In this document: positions 1,020 to 8,407 of the stretch, piece after piece
How positions within the stretch are numbered: the first letter of the stretch is position 1
How the letters are laid out: every line of letters begins with the position of its first letter
Source: a virus
Virus record (IMG/VR): IMGVR_UViG_3300032288_001059
Coordinates: 1-35,740 of that record
Length of the DNA: 35,740 bases
Strand: one strand, 5' to 3'
Translations under genes and position numbers: made by a program
Notes under the pieces: model-generated
Told to the model about the DNA's origin: nothing
Seen by the model: the letters and a program-made list of their open reading frames with translations, nothing else
The model's database searches: none

Positions 1020-2618
1020 TTATGCTTTTACTTTCTTTTGAATCTTAAGAACTAGATTCGTAAGAGTTGTAATTAAAGTTTTTAACTGTGCCACTGTTAC
1101 TGCTAATGCAGCCACTGCAGCAAGTGCCTGTGATGCTGAATCAGTAACTGTTGCAGTTGCAGTAACTTTAACTTGTCCTGCTGTTGGAAGATCAGATCCA
1201 CCAGTTGCAGAAACAGTTACAGTACCAGCGCTTAGTGGCATGAAAACCTTATAAGTTTTTACACCATTTGCATCTGTTGTAACTGCTGTTGCAGTAATAG
1301 TATCACTTGATCCACCAAAAGAATAACTTGTGGTAATTCCACCAGCAGCAAGTAAGTTAGCATATGTCTTTCCAGATAATACAGCACCTGTAGCATCAAC
1401 TGCTGACAAGGTAATTGTTGCTTGCTCTCCTGCTACATAGTTTGCTTTATCAAAAGCCAACTTAATTGTAGCAACGGCAGCCTCAACACGAACTGTTGCT
1501 GTGTCTGCAGAAATTGTGCCACTCCTTACAACTAATCCTGCTGAACCAGTTTTTACACCAGTTAGAGAAAATAGTGCTGCACCATTTACAATTGAAGCAC
1601 TTGTTGCTGAGTTGCTAATTACTGTTAAATCACTTGAGGTAGCAGTTAATGTTCCTGCTCCAACAACTACTCCAGCAGCATCATATGCTACCGCAGAAAT
1701 TGCATCTGCATTTGAACCTACTGCAATTACTGGCTTCTTTACAGTTGTAACAATTTTAGCAATGTCTCCATAAAATGTTACTTTTTCTGTTCCTAGTAAT
1801 ACACCAGATGCTGAAGTTAGAGTAATTACTCCCTCTCCAGATGTTCCATCGGAAAATACTCCAATGTAACTACCTGCAGGAATAACCAATGATCTGCCTA
1901 GACCAGTAATTGTTGCATGGTTTGTTCCATGTCCCAACATACCTGCACCTGAAATAGTTGCTGTAATAGATTCTGAAGCAGAACCGTTGGCAGCATTCTT
2001 TTGAGTTAATACAATAACTGCTGCAGCATCAGATGAAACTGTTTTTGAAGCGTATACAGTAGCATCAGTTGTTGCTGAAATTGTTTCTCCAGCATTAAGA
2101 ATAGATGTTGTATGTGCAGTTGATGCCTTTAGATCTGGAGCAGTAACTGTAACTGTCCATGTTAATGGAACAGATGTTACTGAGCCAGAAGCACTTGTTA
2201 ATGTAGGAATAAATCTAACTACATATGTTCCAGGAACGCTAGGTACGTAGAATGACGATGTTAGTTTTGCAGTAACATAGCCAGTTGTATTTGTTGCTGG
2301 CGAAATTGCTGCTGTTGTTGTGTCTGCTGATAGTGCCACTGTTGCGCTAGATGTTTCTGTAACAGCAAATCGTGGAACGCTAGCAGTAGATGGGGCAGAC
2401 AATACTGCAGATATTACCGAAACAGTATCTCCAATAGTTGTTCCTAAAAACGATACTGATACTACTGCTGTTGCAGTCTCACCAGGATTAATTGTATCTG
2501 CTACTGCATCAATGCTAACAACGTCAGCATAGACTGTAGCCTGTGTCGGAAGTGCCGACATCACGCCAAGTGTCAAGGCTGCAGCCAAGACTGTGGCAAT
2601 TTTCTTAAATGAATTCAT
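1020..2618 (-). CDS. Secreted Ig-like beta-strand-repeat surface protein, host-like
   Basis: This 532-residue protein starts with a Sec signal peptide: KK at 5-6, a hydrophobic core at 7-23, and likely cleavage after V-Y-A at 29-31. The body is Ala/Thr/Ser/Val-rich, low in charge and cysteine-free, with repeated beta-sandwich-like segments. One is a GTYVVRF strand typical of bacterial Ig-like domains. The last ~35 residues form an amphipathic helix ending LTNLVLKIQKKVKA. I recall similar C-termini in surface proteins of freshwater acI actinobacteria; that is memory, not a search. The start is supported by AAGGAGA just upstream, and a strong terminator follows. Two sampled 60-base lines are 40-43% GC, above most of the window. 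Decoration of the virion or of the infected cell surface are both possible; neither is shown. Confidence 0.75.
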   Translation of the reverse strand: MNSFKKIATVLAAALTLGVMSALPTQATVYADVVSIDAVADTINPGETATAVVSVSFLGTTIGDTVSVISAVLSAPSTASVPRFAVTETSSATVALSADTTTAAISPATNTTGYVTAKLTSSFYVPSVPGTYVVRFIPTLTSASGSVTSVPLTWTVTVTAPDLKASTAHTTSILNAGETISATTDATVYASKTVSSDAAAVIVLTQKNAANGSASESITATISGAGMLGHGTNHATITGLGRSLVIPAGSYIGVFSDGTSGEGVITLTSASGVLLGTEKVTFYGDIAKIVTTVKKPVIAVGSNADAISAVAYDAAGVVVGAGTLTATSSDLTVISNSATSASIVNGAALFSLTGVKTGSAGLVVRSGTISADTATVRVEAAVATIKLAFDKANYVAGEQATITLSAVDATGAVLSGKTYANLLAAGGITTSYSFGGSSDTITATAVTTDANGVKTYKVFMPLSAGTVTVSATGGSDLPTAGQVKVTATATVTDSASQALAAVAALAVTVAQLKTLITTLTNLVLKIQKKVKA

Positions 2619-2634: not shown

Positions 2635-4410
2635 TTATATTAAGTTTAGTTTATCAAGAAAATCCTTAACGTCGTTAGGCATTTCCCGATTATCCAATTC
2701 TACCATACCTTGTTGTTTTTCTGCAAATCGTGTTGCAGAACTCCAAGTATGAATTTCTATCTCTGTATTATTAGTCTTTTGTGTATGGGATATTGCTCCA
2801 AATACCGCACCACAGACTGCATCAGCCAAGTCTTTTGATTTTTTACGAGGATGATCTACCCTATTACCTTTCATTATTTTTAATTCTGACATTTCTTCTA
2901 ATAAAATAGGAATCATTGGAATGGCTACACGCTCCTCATAAATCATCATTGCTAAATCTTCGTAATGTTTTTTAGCAACTGAAACTGTTTCTGTTTTAAT
3001 TCCAACCGCTTGTAGTTCGTTTTGAATATCAAATGATTGCCAACGATCAAAAGAAACCATTCCAATATTAAAACCTTCTCTACGTAAGTTAATGATCCAT
3101 TGTTTTACTTCAGATAAATTAACTGGTCCTTCTGCTTTTGGTTCCCACCAAGCAACAGCATCAACAATAACAATTGGGGCTACCTGCTCATAATCTTTGA
3201 TAACTTGAATATTAACCCATTTATCAACATGTGCTATAGCAACAGCACATTTATCATGTTTTTGTGCAAGATCAGCGTGTATGTAATACACTTTATCTGG
3301 ATCTGGCTTAAATACTTTATCAAACCTTCTAAACGAATCTAATGGATTTCTAATGTTCATACATTTTTCTAGTTTTTCTTTTTGTTTAAAAAAAGCATCT
3401 GAAGCAAATGTTGGAACACAAGCAAATCGCATCATGGCATCTCCAAGATCTGTATAAAAGGCTAACTTAAAGTCATCAATTTTTCTTGTTGGATTTACCT
3501 CCCATGTTGGTCTTTTTAATGCTAATATTTTTGGAACCTTGTAAGAAATGATCTGATCTTCTTCCCAAATAATTTCAAATTGATTACTTGGGTCATCATG
3601 CGGTAAGGCTTCATTCATAATAAAGATATGTTTTTTTTCAATTGTTTCTTTTTCCATAATTACATCTTCGTACCGTTTTGAAATAAAGTCGCCTTGATAA
3701 CGAGGAAAAGAAAGAAGTACTACCTTTCCAAGATCTGGAAAACGAGAATCTACGGATCCACGAAATGCTTTATAAATATTTTCTGCAGTTTTACCTTGTT
3801 CATTACCAGTTCCAACCTCGGAAGCAAAACCAGATATTTCATCAAGAACTGCAAGCAATAAATTCAAACCCTCATGAGACTCTCTTTCTGAATGTCCAGA
3901 ATAAACTGTAATTGACTTATCAAATTCAACACTATCTGCTTTTGCATTATATTTTCCAGCAAACCATGGCGACTTTTCAATTTTAGTTTTAAACCCTTTA
4001 AAGAAAACATTTTTAGCCTGTTGAGCATTAATTGCAACGTTAATTAAATCTATTGCATCTCCACTTGGTTTTCCGAAATATCTTGCAGGGTCTTTAAGAC
4101 ATAATAACTTATAGACAATATAAGCACAAGCAACAGTAGAGGTAAAATCTTTACCACTGCCTTTGCCAAGTTGTAAAATGATCTCGTTTTTTGTGTATTT
4201 TTCATAATACCTAGCCCCTTCTACAGAACCATAAAGATCCTGTAAATCTTCTTTTTTATATATTTGACTCATTGCTTCAACAATGTCATATTGAATTGAT
4301 GACAAAGGTGGCTGACCAAGGTACTCAGAAGACTCTACAAATGTTTTTGCATCTACTGGCTTTTCTTCAAATTGATTTTCTTTTAATACTTCTAAAAAAT
4401 CATTGAACAT
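2635..4410 (-). CDS. terL: Terminase large subunit (packaging ATPase and nuclease)
   Basis: This is the motor that pumps DNA into the procapsid and cuts the concatemer. From the ATG at 4410 (591 residues) the ATPase shows Walker A GKGSGKD at 82-88 and Walker B LLLAVLDE ending at D190-E191. The nuclease half shows an RNase H-like acidic set: HADLAQ (D380), VSFDRW (D455) and KSKDLADAV (D527, D530). The length is normal for the family. A TTG at 4419 would add three residues, but the internal ATG is more plausible. The gene overlaps the end of the upstream small-subunit-like gene, which fits translational coupling. It sits after the replication and accessory genes and before two exported-protein genes, with no portal gene beside it inside the window. 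Confidence 0.95.
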   Translation of the reverse strand: MFNDFLEVLKENQFEEKPVDAKTFVESSEYLGQPPLSSIQYDIVEAMSQIYKKEDLQDLYGSVEGARYYEKYTKNEIILQLGKGSGKDFTSTVACAYIVYKLLCLKDPARYFGKPSGDAIDLINVAINAQQAKNVFFKGFKTKIEKSPWFAGKYNAKADSVEFDKSITVYSGHSERESHEGLNLLLAVLDEISGFASEVGTGNEQGKTAENIYKAFRGSVDSRFPDLGKVVLLSFPRYQGDFISKRYEDVIMEKETIEKKHIFIMNEALPHDDPSNQFEIIWEEDQIISYKVPKILALKRPTWEVNPTRKIDDFKLAFYTDLGDAMMRFACVPTFASDAFFKQKEKLEKCMNIRNPLDSFRRFDKVFKPDPDKVYYIHADLAQKHDKCAVAIAHVDKWVNIQVIKDYEQVAPIVIVDAVAWWEPKAEGPVNLSEVKQWIINLRREGFNIGMVSFDRWQSFDIQNELQAVGIKTETVSVAKKHYEDLAMMIYEERVAIPMIPILLEEMSELKIMKGNRVDHPRKKSKDLADAVCGAVFGAISHTQKTNNTEIEIHTWSSATRFAEKQQGMVELDNREMPNDVKDFLDKLNLI

Positions 4411-4936
4411 CGTGGACAATTGTAATCACTTCGCCTTCTTTTGCAATAGATGAAAGCCTATGCATAATTAAATCACGAACTTCTGGATGTTCTGATGCAA
4501 TGTCTCTAAGAATACCAACAAGAACTTCTTGACGACGTTCAATCTCAACCATCTCTTCTGCAAGTTCTTTATTCTCAAGAAGTCCAGCCTTTTGTAGCAT
4601 TTCAATTCTAGACTTTTCAATGTCTACAACTAATTTAATTGCTTGTGTTTTTGCACTAAGATTATTTGTCATTGATGCTTCATCAATAACTTCATAAGAT
4701 TTTGTAATTAATTTACTATAATGTGCATCTGCTCCAGCAAGTGCTTCTTTTGCACGAGCACGAATTGCTTCATTAGCAGAAGCCATAACTTTCCACTCAT
4801 TAATTAATGCAACAACACGAGTTCTTGGCATATCCAAATCTTTAGAAATTTTTGTTGGATCTTGTCCTTTAAGATATTCTGCAACAACTTTATTTACCTC
4901 ATCAAGGTGATCAATTAATTCTTTTTCAGTTGACAT
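4400..4936 (-). CDS. terS: Probable terminase small subunit (helix-turn-helix DNA binder)
   Basis: This 178-residue, highly helical and charged protein has an N-terminal helix-turn-helix-like segment at about 26-48 (DPTKISKDLDMPRTRV, then ALINEW). This is the usual DNA-recognition design of small terminase subunits. The middle (about 85-140) is predicted coiled coil, consistent with oligomerisation. The call rests on that layout and on its position directly upstream of, and overlapping, the large terminase gene. No specific family motif was identified, so another DNA-binding packaging factor is possible. The start ATG overlaps the end of the preceding Nmad1-like gene by 11 bases. Confidence 0.7.
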   Translation of the reverse strand: MSTEKELIDHLDEVNKVVAEYLKGQDPTKISKDLDMPRTRVVALINEWKVMASANEAIRARAKEALAGADAHYSKLITKSYEVIDEASMTNNLSAKTQAIKLVVDIEKSRIEMLQKAGLLENKELAEEMVEIERRQEVLVGILRDIASEHPEVRDLIMHRLSSIAKEGEVITIVHDVQ

Positions 4937-5261
4937 TTTTTTCCTTTGCTATTTTAAGCAAAACTAAATATCCAATAAGGTCATCTATGTCATTGTCTCC
5001 AATATAGTCTGTGCCCTTCATAAGCCTACTTAATTTATCATCAATTCTTACTCTAAGTTGTTCTACTGGATCTGATTTACTAAAAATTCTAACAGGGTCT
5101 AAAGCAGAATCTCCATATGCAATGTTTTTATCAATAAGCATTTTTGCAATTCCGTGACAAGTTACCCAAATATCTTTGCCAGAGGGTGCCCCTACAGAAT
5201 AAAGATATAAATCTTCACAACTAAAATTTTTTACATCTTTATATACTGGTTTTAATTTCAT
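4926..5261 (-). CDS. DUF1599/Nmad1-like protein
   Basis: This 111-residue protein matches the pattern I know for the DUF1599 family, also called nucleotide modification associated domain 1. It has YGDSALDPVRIFSK (about 49-62), then LRVRIDDKLSRL (69-80), then an acidic DNDIDDLIGYLVLLK stretch (about 88-102). The conserved acidic, Arg and Lys residues suggest nucleotide or nucleotide-sugar binding. The family has been linked by gene context to modified-base pathways, but its biochemical role is not established. No obvious base-modifying transferase or dNMP hydroxymethylase is in this window, so a modified-DNA role is only a possibility. Its ATG overlaps the stop of the upstream helix-turn-helix gene in an ATGA arrangement. 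Confidence 0.72.
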   Translation of the reverse strand: MKLKPVYKDVKNFSCEDLYLYSVGAPSGKDIWVTCHGIAKMLIDKNIAYGDSALDPVRIFSKSDPVEQLRVRIDDKLSRLMKGTDYIGDNDIDDLIGYLVLLKIAKEKNVN

Positions 5262-5413
5262 CGTCTAGATTTCCTTAATCCAAATTTTGCAAGGTATACG
5301 TAAATAGTTTCAACACTAGTTCCACACTCCTTGGCAATATCTTGTGGAGACTTTTTGTCTATAATAAATCTTTTACGGAGCCAAGCCTCGCTTGTATATA
5401 GTTTAGCAGTCAT
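5258..5413 (-). CDS. Small helix-turn-helix protein (51 aa)
   Basis: This short ORF runs from ATG 5413 to TGA 5258. It encodes 51 residues with a clear helix-turn-helix: WLRKRFIIDKKSPQDIAKEC, then GTSVETIYVYLAKFGLRKSR. The pattern of a long first helix, S-P-x-D-I-A-x-x-x-G-T-S and a recognition helix ending in LxxFGL resembles small phage DNA-binding proteins and the DNA-binding ends of some homing nucleases and invertases. There is no catalytic domain. It fills the gap between the halogenase and the Nmad1-like gene and overlaps the latter by four bases, so it is probably translated as part of that operon. The role may be regulatory; the target is unknown. Confidence 0.8.
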   Translation of the reverse strand: MTAKLYTSEAWLRKRFIIDKKSPQDIAKECGTSVETIYVYLAKFGLRKSRR

Positions 5414-5436
5414 AAAATTATTTGTCAAATTTTCTA

Positions 5437-6909
5437 TTAAACATATTCTGTATTTCTTATTTTTTCAATTATTTTTTTATGTGTTATAGTCTTATATGTC
5501 ATATCTATGTTCAATTGTTCATTAATTGTAAGATTTGTTATATTTTTTAAATTATTTGATAAAAAATTATACTCATTTAATATTTTTTTATTATCAAAAA
5601 GATTAAGACCAGCCATAACAAGAATAAAACTTGGTGAACGAAACATTGAATATGTTGAATCATTTTTAAAATCTTCCGCTATTGGGAGTTTTGTTTTCCA
5701 TTTTTCTAAATTATATTCTAAAGAATCTGGAATTTTTGTTTTTAAAATATTTTTCCAAAAATCCGTATCTTTCCTTTTTGTTAAATAGTGTAAAACAATA
5801 AAGTCTCTAATATTTTCAACAATACTATTAAAAGAAATATTATAATCTTTAATAACTTTTTCATCATAATTAGAAATTTTATGCATAAGCAAAAAACTTT
5901 GTTGAATACTTAATCCAATTGATGTTGCTTCAAGTGGCTCAAAAAAACTTCCACTTAGTCCTATAGCAACACAATTTTTAATCCAAACGTTTTCTAAAGT
6001 GCCTGGATCAAAATTAAAAGTTTTTCCAATTTCAATTTTATTTCCTAATTCTTTTTCTAATTCTAACTTTGCCTCATCGGCAGAAATAAAATTATTATCA
6101 TAAATATATCCATTGCCATGGCGACCCCAGACTGGTATCTTAAATCTCCATCCAGAATCCATTGCTTTTGCTAATGTCCATGCATTATAATTTTCTTCGT
6201 CTGGTGTTTGAAAAGTAATAGCAGAGTTTAATGTTAAATATTTACTAAATGATTTCCATTTAAAGTTTAGTTTATTCATTAAAACTCTTTTAAATCCAGT
6301 TGAATCTATATAAAAATCACTTTTATAATTTATATTTTTTCCAATTAACTCTTTAATATATCCATCACTGTCTAATTTAACATCAATAATTTCATCATCA
6401 AAAAGTTTAATTCCTTTTTTAATTGCTATTTTTTTTAAAAATTCATTTAATTTAAAAGTATTAAAATGATATTGGTTTATTGCTACATTTGTAACTGAAT
6501 CTATATCTATTATTTCTTCTTCTATTAAATTTTTTTCTATATTTTTAGAATAAAGATAGTTTGAATTTTCGGATATTTCTTTACCATATATAGCGCTATA
6601 TTGACCAAAGGTACTTGTAAATGGAAAAAACGGAGAATGGAGATATTTATGATTTTTTATCCAATTGTCAAACATTACTCCTTTTTTAAAAGTTGCATCG
6701 CATTCTTTTATAATTTCGCTTGGTTTAATTCCAACAAAACGCATAAAATCTGTAAAATTTTCTGTTGATCCTTCGCCAACACCAATGATTTCAATATTTG
6801 AAGAATATATTAAGTTAACATCTATACTGCTACGTTGTTTTAAAATAAGCGCAGAAATTAATCCCGCAGTACCACCACCAACAACTGTTAAACTTTTAAC
6901 CTGTTTCAT
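5437..6909 (-). CDS. Flavin-dependent tryptophan halogenase-like enzyme
   Basis: This 490-residue protein belongs to the FADH2-dependent halogenase family (PrnA/RebH type), in which hypohalous acid made at the flavin reaches the substrate via a lysine. Visible features are the FAD-binding GGGTAG at 11-16, GVGEGS at 43-48, a lysine in ATFKKGVMFDNW that aligns with the catalytic Lys79 of PrnA/RebH (K75), IDSTG at 201-205, and FFEPLEATSIG at 322-332, matching the FVEPLESTGI segment that carries the essential glutamate. The family signature WxWxIP appears as WRFKIP (254-259), with Phe for the second Trp. Length is slightly under the usual 510-540. No flavin reductase gene is in the window, so host FADH2 would be needed. 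The gene is strikingly AT-rich and follows the 214-residue gene with a one-base gap. The substrate is unknown. Confidence 0.9.
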   Translation of the reverse strand: MKQVKSLTVVGGGTAGLISALILKQRSSIDVNLIYSSNIEIIGVGEGSTENFTDFMRFVGIKPSEIIKECDATFKKGVMFDNWIKNHKYLHSPFFPFTSTFGQYSAIYGKEISENSNYLYSKNIEKNLIEEEIIDIDSVTNVAINQYHFNTFKLNEFLKKIAIKKGIKLFDDEIIDVKLDSDGYIKELIGKNINYKSDFYIDSTGFKRVLMNKLNFKWKSFSKYLTLNSAITFQTPDEENYNAWTLAKAMDSGWRFKIPVWGRHGNGYIYDNNFISADEAKLELEKELGNKIEIGKTFNFDPGTLENVWIKNCVAIGLSGSFFEPLEATSIGLSIQQSFLLMHKISNYDEKVIKDYNISFNSIVENIRDFIVLHYLTKRKDTDFWKNILKTKIPDSLEYNLEKWKTKLPIAEDFKNDSTYSMFRSPSFILVMAGLNLFDNKKILNEYNFLSNNLKNITNLTINEQLNIDMTYKTITHKKIIEKIRNTEYV

Positions 6910-6910
6910 T

Positions 6911-7555
6911 TTAGTTAGAATTTCCCGTCTCTGTAATTTTATAATAAAATTTGTCAGAATCTTCTAGCATCCATTTATCTTGATTTTCTACATCCCATTT
7001 TCTTTCATTAATTATCCTATCAATTACAAAATCTTTCTTTAAGGTAAAAGAAGGTTCATAGATGCGAACTCTGTTATTAGGCTGAATAGCAAAGTTTCCA
7101 TCATCTCTTTGAATAACATGTCCACATTTATGTTCTGCTGGATTTTCTGAATACCCGTCATCTAAAACATTAGAGTCTGGGTTATGCCAATCAAGAGTAA
7201 ATAAATACGTTCCTTTATGCATAGTTTTTGTTCTGTCAATGTAAGACATTTTAAGATTTGTAAGATTTTCAAATTTTGTCACAGATATATGATGACTAAA
7301 AGCATTCCATAAAACTAAATTGTGTATGTCTTCTTCTGGTATATTGGGCTGTGTGCAAAAAGCATTTATAGGCATTCTCCACCATAATCCACCATCCTCC
7401 ATCATTATATGGAATAACGGACTTCTACTTTTTATACTTGCAACTCCAAAAATAACACATGGAAAATATTTATCATGGCTATCTTTTTGGTTTCGTAAAA
7501 AATTTCCACGAACGTAACATTCAATTGGTGGTATGTTTGCATTTAGTTCTGGCAT
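6911..7555 (-). CDS. Uncharacterised protein coupled to the halogenase
   Basis: This 214-residue protein has no signal peptide or membrane segment. It begins with NANIPPIECYVRGNFL (about 5-20), followed by FGVASI (37-42), FHIMMEDGGLWWRMP (48-62), a His-containing NAFSHH segment (about 84-89), LDWHNPDSN, and AEHKCGHVIQRDDGN. The many conserved-looking Gly, His, Trp and Cys residues suggest a compact globular fold, and it has six tryptophans. I recall similar proteins in cyanophages and other aquatic phages but know no assigned function. Its ATG overlaps the stop of the RuvC-like gene (TAATG) and its stop is one base from the halogenase ATG. Co-translation with the halogenase is therefore likely, making it a candidate partner or substrate-side protein. 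Confidence 0.78.
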   Translation of the reverse strand: MPELNANIPPIECYVRGNFLRNQKDSHDKYFPCVIFGVASIKSRSPLFHIMMEDGGLWWRMPINAFCTQPNIPEEDIHNLVLWNAFSHHISVTKFENLTNLKMSYIDRTKTMHKGTYLFTLDWHNPDSNVLDDGYSENPAEHKCGHVIQRDDGNFAIQPNNRVRIYEPSFTLKKDFVIDRIINERKWDVENQDKWMLEDSDKFYYKITETGNSN

Positions 7556-8130
7556 TATTCTACCGCCCCTACTACTTTATTCCAATTATTAATAGCCCAG
7601 TGACCGATACCACAAGCATCAGCAACGTCATTATCGTTAATACTTTTATTATAGTTGATTTCAATTAATTTTATTGTCCTTTCTTTTCTAATTTGTCTTT
7701 CATATGTTTTATACCAAGAGTCTGATTTGCCAGGATTTTTTAATCTAATCTCTAATTGTTCTTCTTTAGTTAATTTTTTATTTCCTAAATAGTTTTGCCA
7801 AGTAATTGGGGCTACCGTTCCTATTTGTTTTGTTCCAGATAAACCTGCTGCACCAAGTAGTGCACCTTGAACTAGCGCAAGATCTGCAGCAGTTTTAGGA
7901 CTATTCATAAAAACTGTATGCTCAATTATTATTGCCTCAAATCCACCAAAGTATTCAAAAAATGCTTTTGTTTTAACACATGCATCCATTACCTTTTCAT
8001 AATTTGTATTACCCTCAAATTTTATTTTTCCAATAGTTCCAAGTTTTTTATTTTCAAATAATGCAAAAGCAAGACTATTAGTACTAGCATCAATCGCACA
8101 AATTTTAGTTAAACTACCATTGTTGTTCAT
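7555..8130 (-). CDS. RuvC-like Holliday junction resolvase
   Basis: This 191-residue protein from ATG 8130 has the RNase H-fold layout of RuvC-type resolvases. The first strand carries AIDASTNSLAFALF (D14), the second acidic residue lies in IIIEHTVF (E70), and the C-terminal helix carries NDVADACGIGHWA (D168 and D171). These four acids are the expected two-metal catalytic set for cutting four-way junctions. The TTG at 8136 would add two residues, but the ATG has AAAGGA at better spacing. It overlaps the zinc-protein gene upstream and the 214-residue gene downstream. It would resolve branched recombination intermediates made by the phage RecA before packaging. Confidence 0.85.
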   Translation of the reverse strand: MNNNGSLTKICAIDASTNSLAFALFENKKLGTIGKIKFEGNTNYEKVMDACVKTKAFFEYFGGFEAIIIEHTVFMNSPKTAADLALVQGALLGAAGLSGTKQIGTVAPITWQNYLGNKKLTKEEQLEIRLKNPGKSDSWYKTYERQIRKERTIKLIEINYNKSINDNDVADACGIGHWAINNWNKVVGAVE

Positions 8131-8407
8131 AGTCAATAAATCCTTTTATTTGTTTTAACATTTTATCTATTTCTTTTTTGTTTATATTACAGTTAGAACA
8201 AAATCCAGAGTCATTATATATTGATAATTGTTCACCACAACCACCAAGACAAAGTCTTTTTTTTCCTATTCTTTTTTGTCTACGAGTTATTTGATACCTT
8301 TCGGCTATTTTAATTTTAGTTGCCTGTTCTCTACAAACATCTCCACAATAAATTTGATATCCCACTTTAGGTTTAAATGGAGTATCACATCTTTCACATA
8401 GTTTCAC
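8114..8407 (-). CDS. Small double zinc-finger protein
   Basis: This 97-residue basic protein has eight cysteines in two sets: C4-C7 with C21-C25, and C53-C57 with C70-C73. Two zinc ribbons or knuckles are implied. The linker is rich in Lys and Arg (RRQKRIGKKR), as expected for nucleic-acid binding. It starts with GTG at 8407, because the ATG two bases further upstream is in another frame. It lies five bases after the Cas4-like nuclease gene and overlaps the resolvase start. Similar small zinc proteins are common in actinophage replication regions, and the specific role is unknown. Confidence 0.75.
   Translation of the reverse strand: MKLCERCDTPFKPKVGYQIYCGDVCREQATKIKIAERYQITRRQKRIGKKRLCLGGCGEQLSIYNDSGFCSNCNINKKEIDKMLKQIKGFIDYEQQW

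Follow-up and report, generated by a model that had tools for sequence, protein, structure and literature searches.

The window, by which we mean the whole stretch of DNA analysed, is a linear virus record of 35.7 kb. Beside its terminase genes it carries a gene for a flavin-dependent halogenase and one for a 214-aa protein, hereafter the partner (Table 1).

Table 1. Genes around the halogenase in the window
Feature	Position	Strand	Basis
Large terminase (TerL), 54% to Streptomyces phages	2635..4419	-	PHROG match, identity
Probable small terminase (TerS), PHROG 9507	4400..4936	-	position before TerL and weak HTH match
Core protein, 111 aa (orf111), PHROG 1485	4926..5261	-	PHROG match, synteny
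Helix-turn-helix (HTH) protein, 56 aa, TTG start, directly downstream of halogenase	5258..5428	-	ORF comparison
Flavin-dependent halogenase, 490 aa	5437..6909	-	ORF, PF04820, alignments, AlphaFold model
Core phage protein (partner), PHROG 3704, 214 aa, all-beta model	6911..7555	-	ORF, PHROG match
RuvC-like Holliday junction resolvase, upstream core neighbour	7555..8136	-	PHROG match, synteny

Both reading frames are as the earlier note had described them: a single base separates the stop codon of the partner from the start of the halogenase (...AACTAA-A-ATG), and the partner start overlaps the stop codon of the resolvase gene (...GAATAATG, TAATG). The overlap is real, but it is a property of the RuvC–partner pair: it is also found in the halogenase-free contigs L007, L008, L025 and L036, and its spacing (gap value 3) is the same in many halogenase-free relatives in which RuvC adjoins the partner. 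The HTH gene had been overlooked before; most relatives have an ORF of about that size at the same place. Downstream of TerL (window positions 1020-2618, minus strand) lies a gene whose 532-aa product begins like a signal peptide and has a weak Ig-like match; this protein varies strongly among relatives (about 30–95% identity).

A megablast search of the window against named phages gave no match. The terminase is 53–54% identical over its full length to those of Streptomyces phages, and 11 of 20 records of the family carry WhiB, a gene that occurs only in Actinobacteria and their phages (PMC6802176, PMC10611076). The hosts are therefore probably actinobacteria, in agreement with the actinobacterial type proposed in the earlier note. 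The low GC content would fit freshwater lineages.

Sequence and predicted fold of the halogenase

The 490-aa protein matches PF04820 with 308.5 bits (cut-off 21, E 1e-91) and PHROG 2928 with 343 bits. Against PDB sequences it gave 30 distinct matches, all of them named halogenases or VirX1; among these is 9lmg (LooH), listed with tryptophan-bound forms. The flavin motif GxGxxG reads GGGTAG at residues 11-16, and its G11, G13 and G16 are invariant in 34 viral sequences. The same is true of K75 and E327, the latter in the motif EPLE(327)ATSI, which align to solved halogenases including PyrH; the catalytic pair of PrnA consists of K79 and E346 (PMC8407142, PMC5945002). An AlphaFold model built from the 34 sequences (pLDDT 91) superimposes on SttH (Z 49.6, rmsd 2.4 over 468), PrnA (Z 45.7, rmsd 2.4 over 468), RebH (Z 43.1, rmsd 2.6 over 472) and VirX1 (Z 37.6, rmsd 3.4 A over 458 residues), the last three being the enzymes against which a check had been proposed. 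Judged by its sequence and predicted fold, the protein is a genuine flavin-dependent halogenase, and the identity first assigned to it stands. The gene looks intact and its enzyme is predicted to attach Cl, Br or I.

One motif deviates. Residues 254-259 read WRFKIP, so that the second Trp of the WxWxIP signature is replaced by Phe. This signature has documented variants and absences (PMC8407142) and is thought to prevent monooxygenation (PMC8407142, PMC5945002). A pattern scan of viral ORFs yielded 47 with WxWxIP and 35 with WxFxIP, with Phe often present in the ORFs most similar to the window enzyme; among cellular relatives, WxWxIP made up 88 of 93 pattern matches. WRFKIP is a variant common in the viral clade of this halogenase, and the exchange could change the chemistry. 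In phmmer comparisons, the likeness to PrnA-type enzymes is weak at residues 100-146 and ends near 421-441; these weakly similar stretches (100-146 and beyond 421-441) may lie where the fold shapes the substrate site.

The partner protein and gene order in the phage family

The earlier note regarded the partner as a protein without assigned function and pointed out its six Trp residues. The count is right and the Pfam search indeed gave no match, but the protein belongs to an existing family, PHROG 3704 (E 1.7e-58). Members are carried by 114 named phages, mostly cyanophages but also Pelagibacter and Flavobacterium phages, and in several of them the gene adjoins DNA polymerase A, ribonucleotide reductase or purM. 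The partner sequence matched nothing in the PDB at E 1. Its model is all-beta (pLDDT 82); Foldseek found no match to it in the PDB below E 0.001, and the best VIA-align scores (Z 7.2) were weak, to Tudor/SH3-like barrels over 58–77 residues. Scores of this size are usual for common arrangements, and we therefore claim no function from this resemblance.

Many public phage records label PHROG 3704 proteins as PurM or ferredoxin, and by domain content both labels are wrong. Neither the window protein nor PSSM2_175 contains an AIRS or AIRS_C domain, as would be expected of PurM (AIR synthetase); the true PurM of P-SSM2, with both domains, is the product of the next gene, PSSM2_176 (L087:4001-5642). 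For a ferredoxin, cluster-binding cysteines are required, whereas only C144 is nearly invariant and there is no Fer2-type Pfam match. The partner most likely acts independently of the halogenase; its gene context suggests a role in DNA replication, recombination or packaging.

Scans of viral contigs for the partner returned 288 relatives in one scan and at least 600 with a profile. The order PolC-RecA-...-Cas4-orf97-RuvC-partner-(orf111)-TerS-TerL is conserved in parts in 76 of the 80 contigs kept from the first scan, and the core order of the family is RuvC-partner-HTH-orf111-TerS-TerL. We examined 160 partner loci, from two scans that overlap by a few contigs, and found a halogenase at 6 of them within the DNA examined. 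A separate halogenase scan recovered more family members and brought the number of related contigs with the gene to 18, some of them near-identical.

In these contigs the halogenase adjoins the partner wherever both are visible. The order is RuvC-halogenase-partner wherever both flanks can be seen; only the window has the halogenase downstream, as RuvC-partner-halogenase. The family halogenases nevertheless form a single clade (support 100/100), and one clade on either side of the partner is as expected of a single insertion hotspot. In other members the slot after the partner is filled differently: by glycosyltransferases (L007, L017, L021, L046), endonuclease VII (L011), a cupin-like protein (L060) or an unknown 220-aa protein (L008, L049), or it is empty. 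The presence of the halogenase does not follow the similarity of the partner, whose window copy is 93% identical to those of the halogenase-free L007 and L008 and 81% identical to that of the halogenase-bearing L177. Two family phages (L263:148-4764 and L264:3751-8785) encode an additional halogenase of greater length (519 and 531 aa) that has the motif GWIWKIP; a PHROG 7084-like gene lies near it, and WhiB is a few kb away.

On the core-gene tree, the distribution of the halogenase requires five or more gains or losses. L175 and L181 are near-twins in their core genes, yet their halogenases are only 70% identical. A single clade with such divergent alleles in near-twin phages is the pattern expected if alleles are exchanged at a hotspot with conserved genes on both sides. 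The GC content of the halogenase gene is 24.5%, compared with about 33% in neighbouring genes. Pairwise dN/dS values of 0.15–0.29 (six pairs) indicate that the gene is under purifying selection. The comparison does not support a recent uptake of the gene from any sequenced bacterial host: no relative that is clearly cellular exceeds 34% identity, and the two better matches from the cellular genome collection have phage-type genes on their contigs. The closest halogenases of that collection, on a Porticoccaceae MAG contig (L266) and an Actinomycetota MAG contig (L267), sit amid such genes, and both contigs are therefore probably viral.

Halogenases of other viruses

Outside the family, we inspected 65 viral contigs with halogenases. 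None of them contained the partner, and 32 carried 2–5 halogenases each. In 58, 2OG-Fe(II) oxygenases were encoded no more than about 6 kb away; this proximity is weak evidence of a link, since T4-like phages commonly carry 2OG enzymes. An unnamed family of about 240 aa, PHROG 7084/17480, was encoded directly beside the halogenase in 29 of 47 cases; in the 15 named phage records with PHROG 7084, coordinates or matched features place it next to a halogenase in all except S-RIM4. In Cyanophage Syn10 (L347:4998-7362), the 3′ end of the VirX1 gene (CPUG_00131) overlaps a PHROG 7084 gene, with a 2OG oxygenase close by. These recurrent neighbourhoods point to 2OG oxygenases and PHROG 7084/17480 as better candidates for functional partners than PHROG 3704.

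On several contigs (L191, L194, L197, L213-L217, L229), 3–5 halogenase paralogues are arrayed in a stretch of 13 kb or less, with genes for 2OG-Fe(II) oxygenases and DUF6445 proteins between them. Tail sheath or fibre genes lie close by on some of the other contigs with halogenases. On L187 (5446-7584), a single 713-aa ORF comprises a halogenase and a further ~228 residues, which in the relative L186 correspond to a gene of its own, from an oxygenase-like phage family that carries the label ferrochelatase; the long ORF is either a true fusion or the result of a lost stop codon.

Possible roles and comparison with known systems

We consider it very probable that the halogenase is an optional accessory gene (moron) of an abundant actinophage lineage, horizontally exchanged, selectively maintained and placed in a variable slot. 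This slot would flank a core gene, the partner, which is present with or without the halogenase. During infection, the enzyme would take FADH2 from the host, assuming a host flavin reductase, and with O2 and halide would form HOX; passed to K75, this would halogenate an electron-rich aromatic substrate. The substrate could be a small molecule, such as free indole, tryptophan or some other host metabolite, or else a glycan or aromatic side chain carried by a protein of the host or the virion.

One possible role, although a rather unlikely one, is the halogenation of tryptophan or indole to an antimicrobial or signalling compound, as has been proposed for the PrnA-like genes of cyanophages (PMC2984593, PMC9964418). 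The fold and catalytic residues are those of tryptophan halogenases; on the other hand, the neighbourhood contains no biosynthetic genes, and the similarity to PrnA-type enzymes is weak in the parts that would shape the substrate site.

It is unlikely, in our estimate, that the enzyme instead modifies aromatic residues of a structural or surface protein of the phage, alongside 2OG oxygenases and glycosyltransferases. The frequent oxygenases near outside halogenases would agree with this, as would the tail or baseplate genes that adjoin some of them and the glycosyltransferases in the slot next to the partner in relatives. In Actinomycetia phage DSL-LC01 (L262:1308-7850), collagen-repeat tail genes are followed by one gene, by a halogenase overlapping a glycosyltransferase gene, and then by WhiB. 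The window halogenase, however, lies in a replication-packaging module, and the window has neither a PF13640 oxygenase nor a PHROG 7084-like gene. A broader version is doubtful: viral flavin halogenases, 2OG-Fe(II) oxygenases and PHROG 7084/17480 would together form a phage system that chemically modifies virion or host-surface proteins, of which the window enzyme would be a WxFxIP branch relocated to the replication-packaging region of actinophages.

Very improbable is the two-gene cassette of the earlier note, with the partner as substrate, adaptor or regulator of the halogenase: the genes are adjacent and co-directional in the window and neighbours in the family contigs that show both flanks of the halogenase, but the partner is a core gene mostly found without a halogenase and absent from the outside halogenase contigs, the gene order is reversed in relatives, the two genes are about 30 kb or more apart in P-SSM2, P-SSM5, HTVC008M and P-TIM40, the conserved Trp residues of the partner are retained in halogenase-free phages too, and a conserved neighbourhood of the pair is thus largely lacking in related phages. 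The adjacency in family contigs with this halogenase would still allow a functional link within the family.

The analysis separates a false neighbour (PHROG 3704) from the recurrent ones (2OG oxygenases and PHROG 7084/17480). Viral halogenases are common, and as far as the literature shows, VirX1 has been characterised on non-natural substrates. Closely related actinophages that have or lack the gene lend themselves to direct comparison, by metabolomics or virion proteomics, in the search for the substrate.

Among known systems, PSSM2_175 of P-SSM2 and gp11 of HTVC027P, two of the proteins labelled PurM or ferredoxin, belong to the same family as the partner (32–43% identity) but differ in context, lying with DNA polymerase A, ribonucleotide reductase and purM. 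VirX1 (PDB 6qgm) is, like the window enzyme, a viral flavin-dependent halogenase of the same family by sequence, at about 24–26% identity. Its motifs are GWVWNIP and EPLESTGL, compared with GWRFKIP and EPLEATSI, and its neighbours are a second halogenase, PHROG 7084 and a 2OG oxygenase, in contrast to RuvC and terminase. The closest named phage proteins are the "tryptophan halogenases" of cyanophages in PHROG 2928 (S-H38, 45% identity; P-SSM2, 40%), which share EPLEATSI but have WSWxIP and come from T4-like cyanophages; unlike in the window, the neighbours in P-SSM2 are 2OG and tail-assembly genes.

The Streptomyces phages Yaboi and Gilson resemble the window in their full-length terminase, but no Streptomyces phage is among the records with a halogenase match. 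The enzyme is not the first halogenase of an actinophage; one was previously annotated in DSL-LC01 (OQ999401), a lake phage (PMC10611076). That protein is distant, matching a relative of the window halogenase at about 29% over a part, and has the motifs GWVSKIP and EPLDFSSM. The window gene belongs to a known enzyme family and occupies a known kind of place, as an accessory gene of a phage; its motif variant is conserved, and its alleles are patchily distributed and exchanged.
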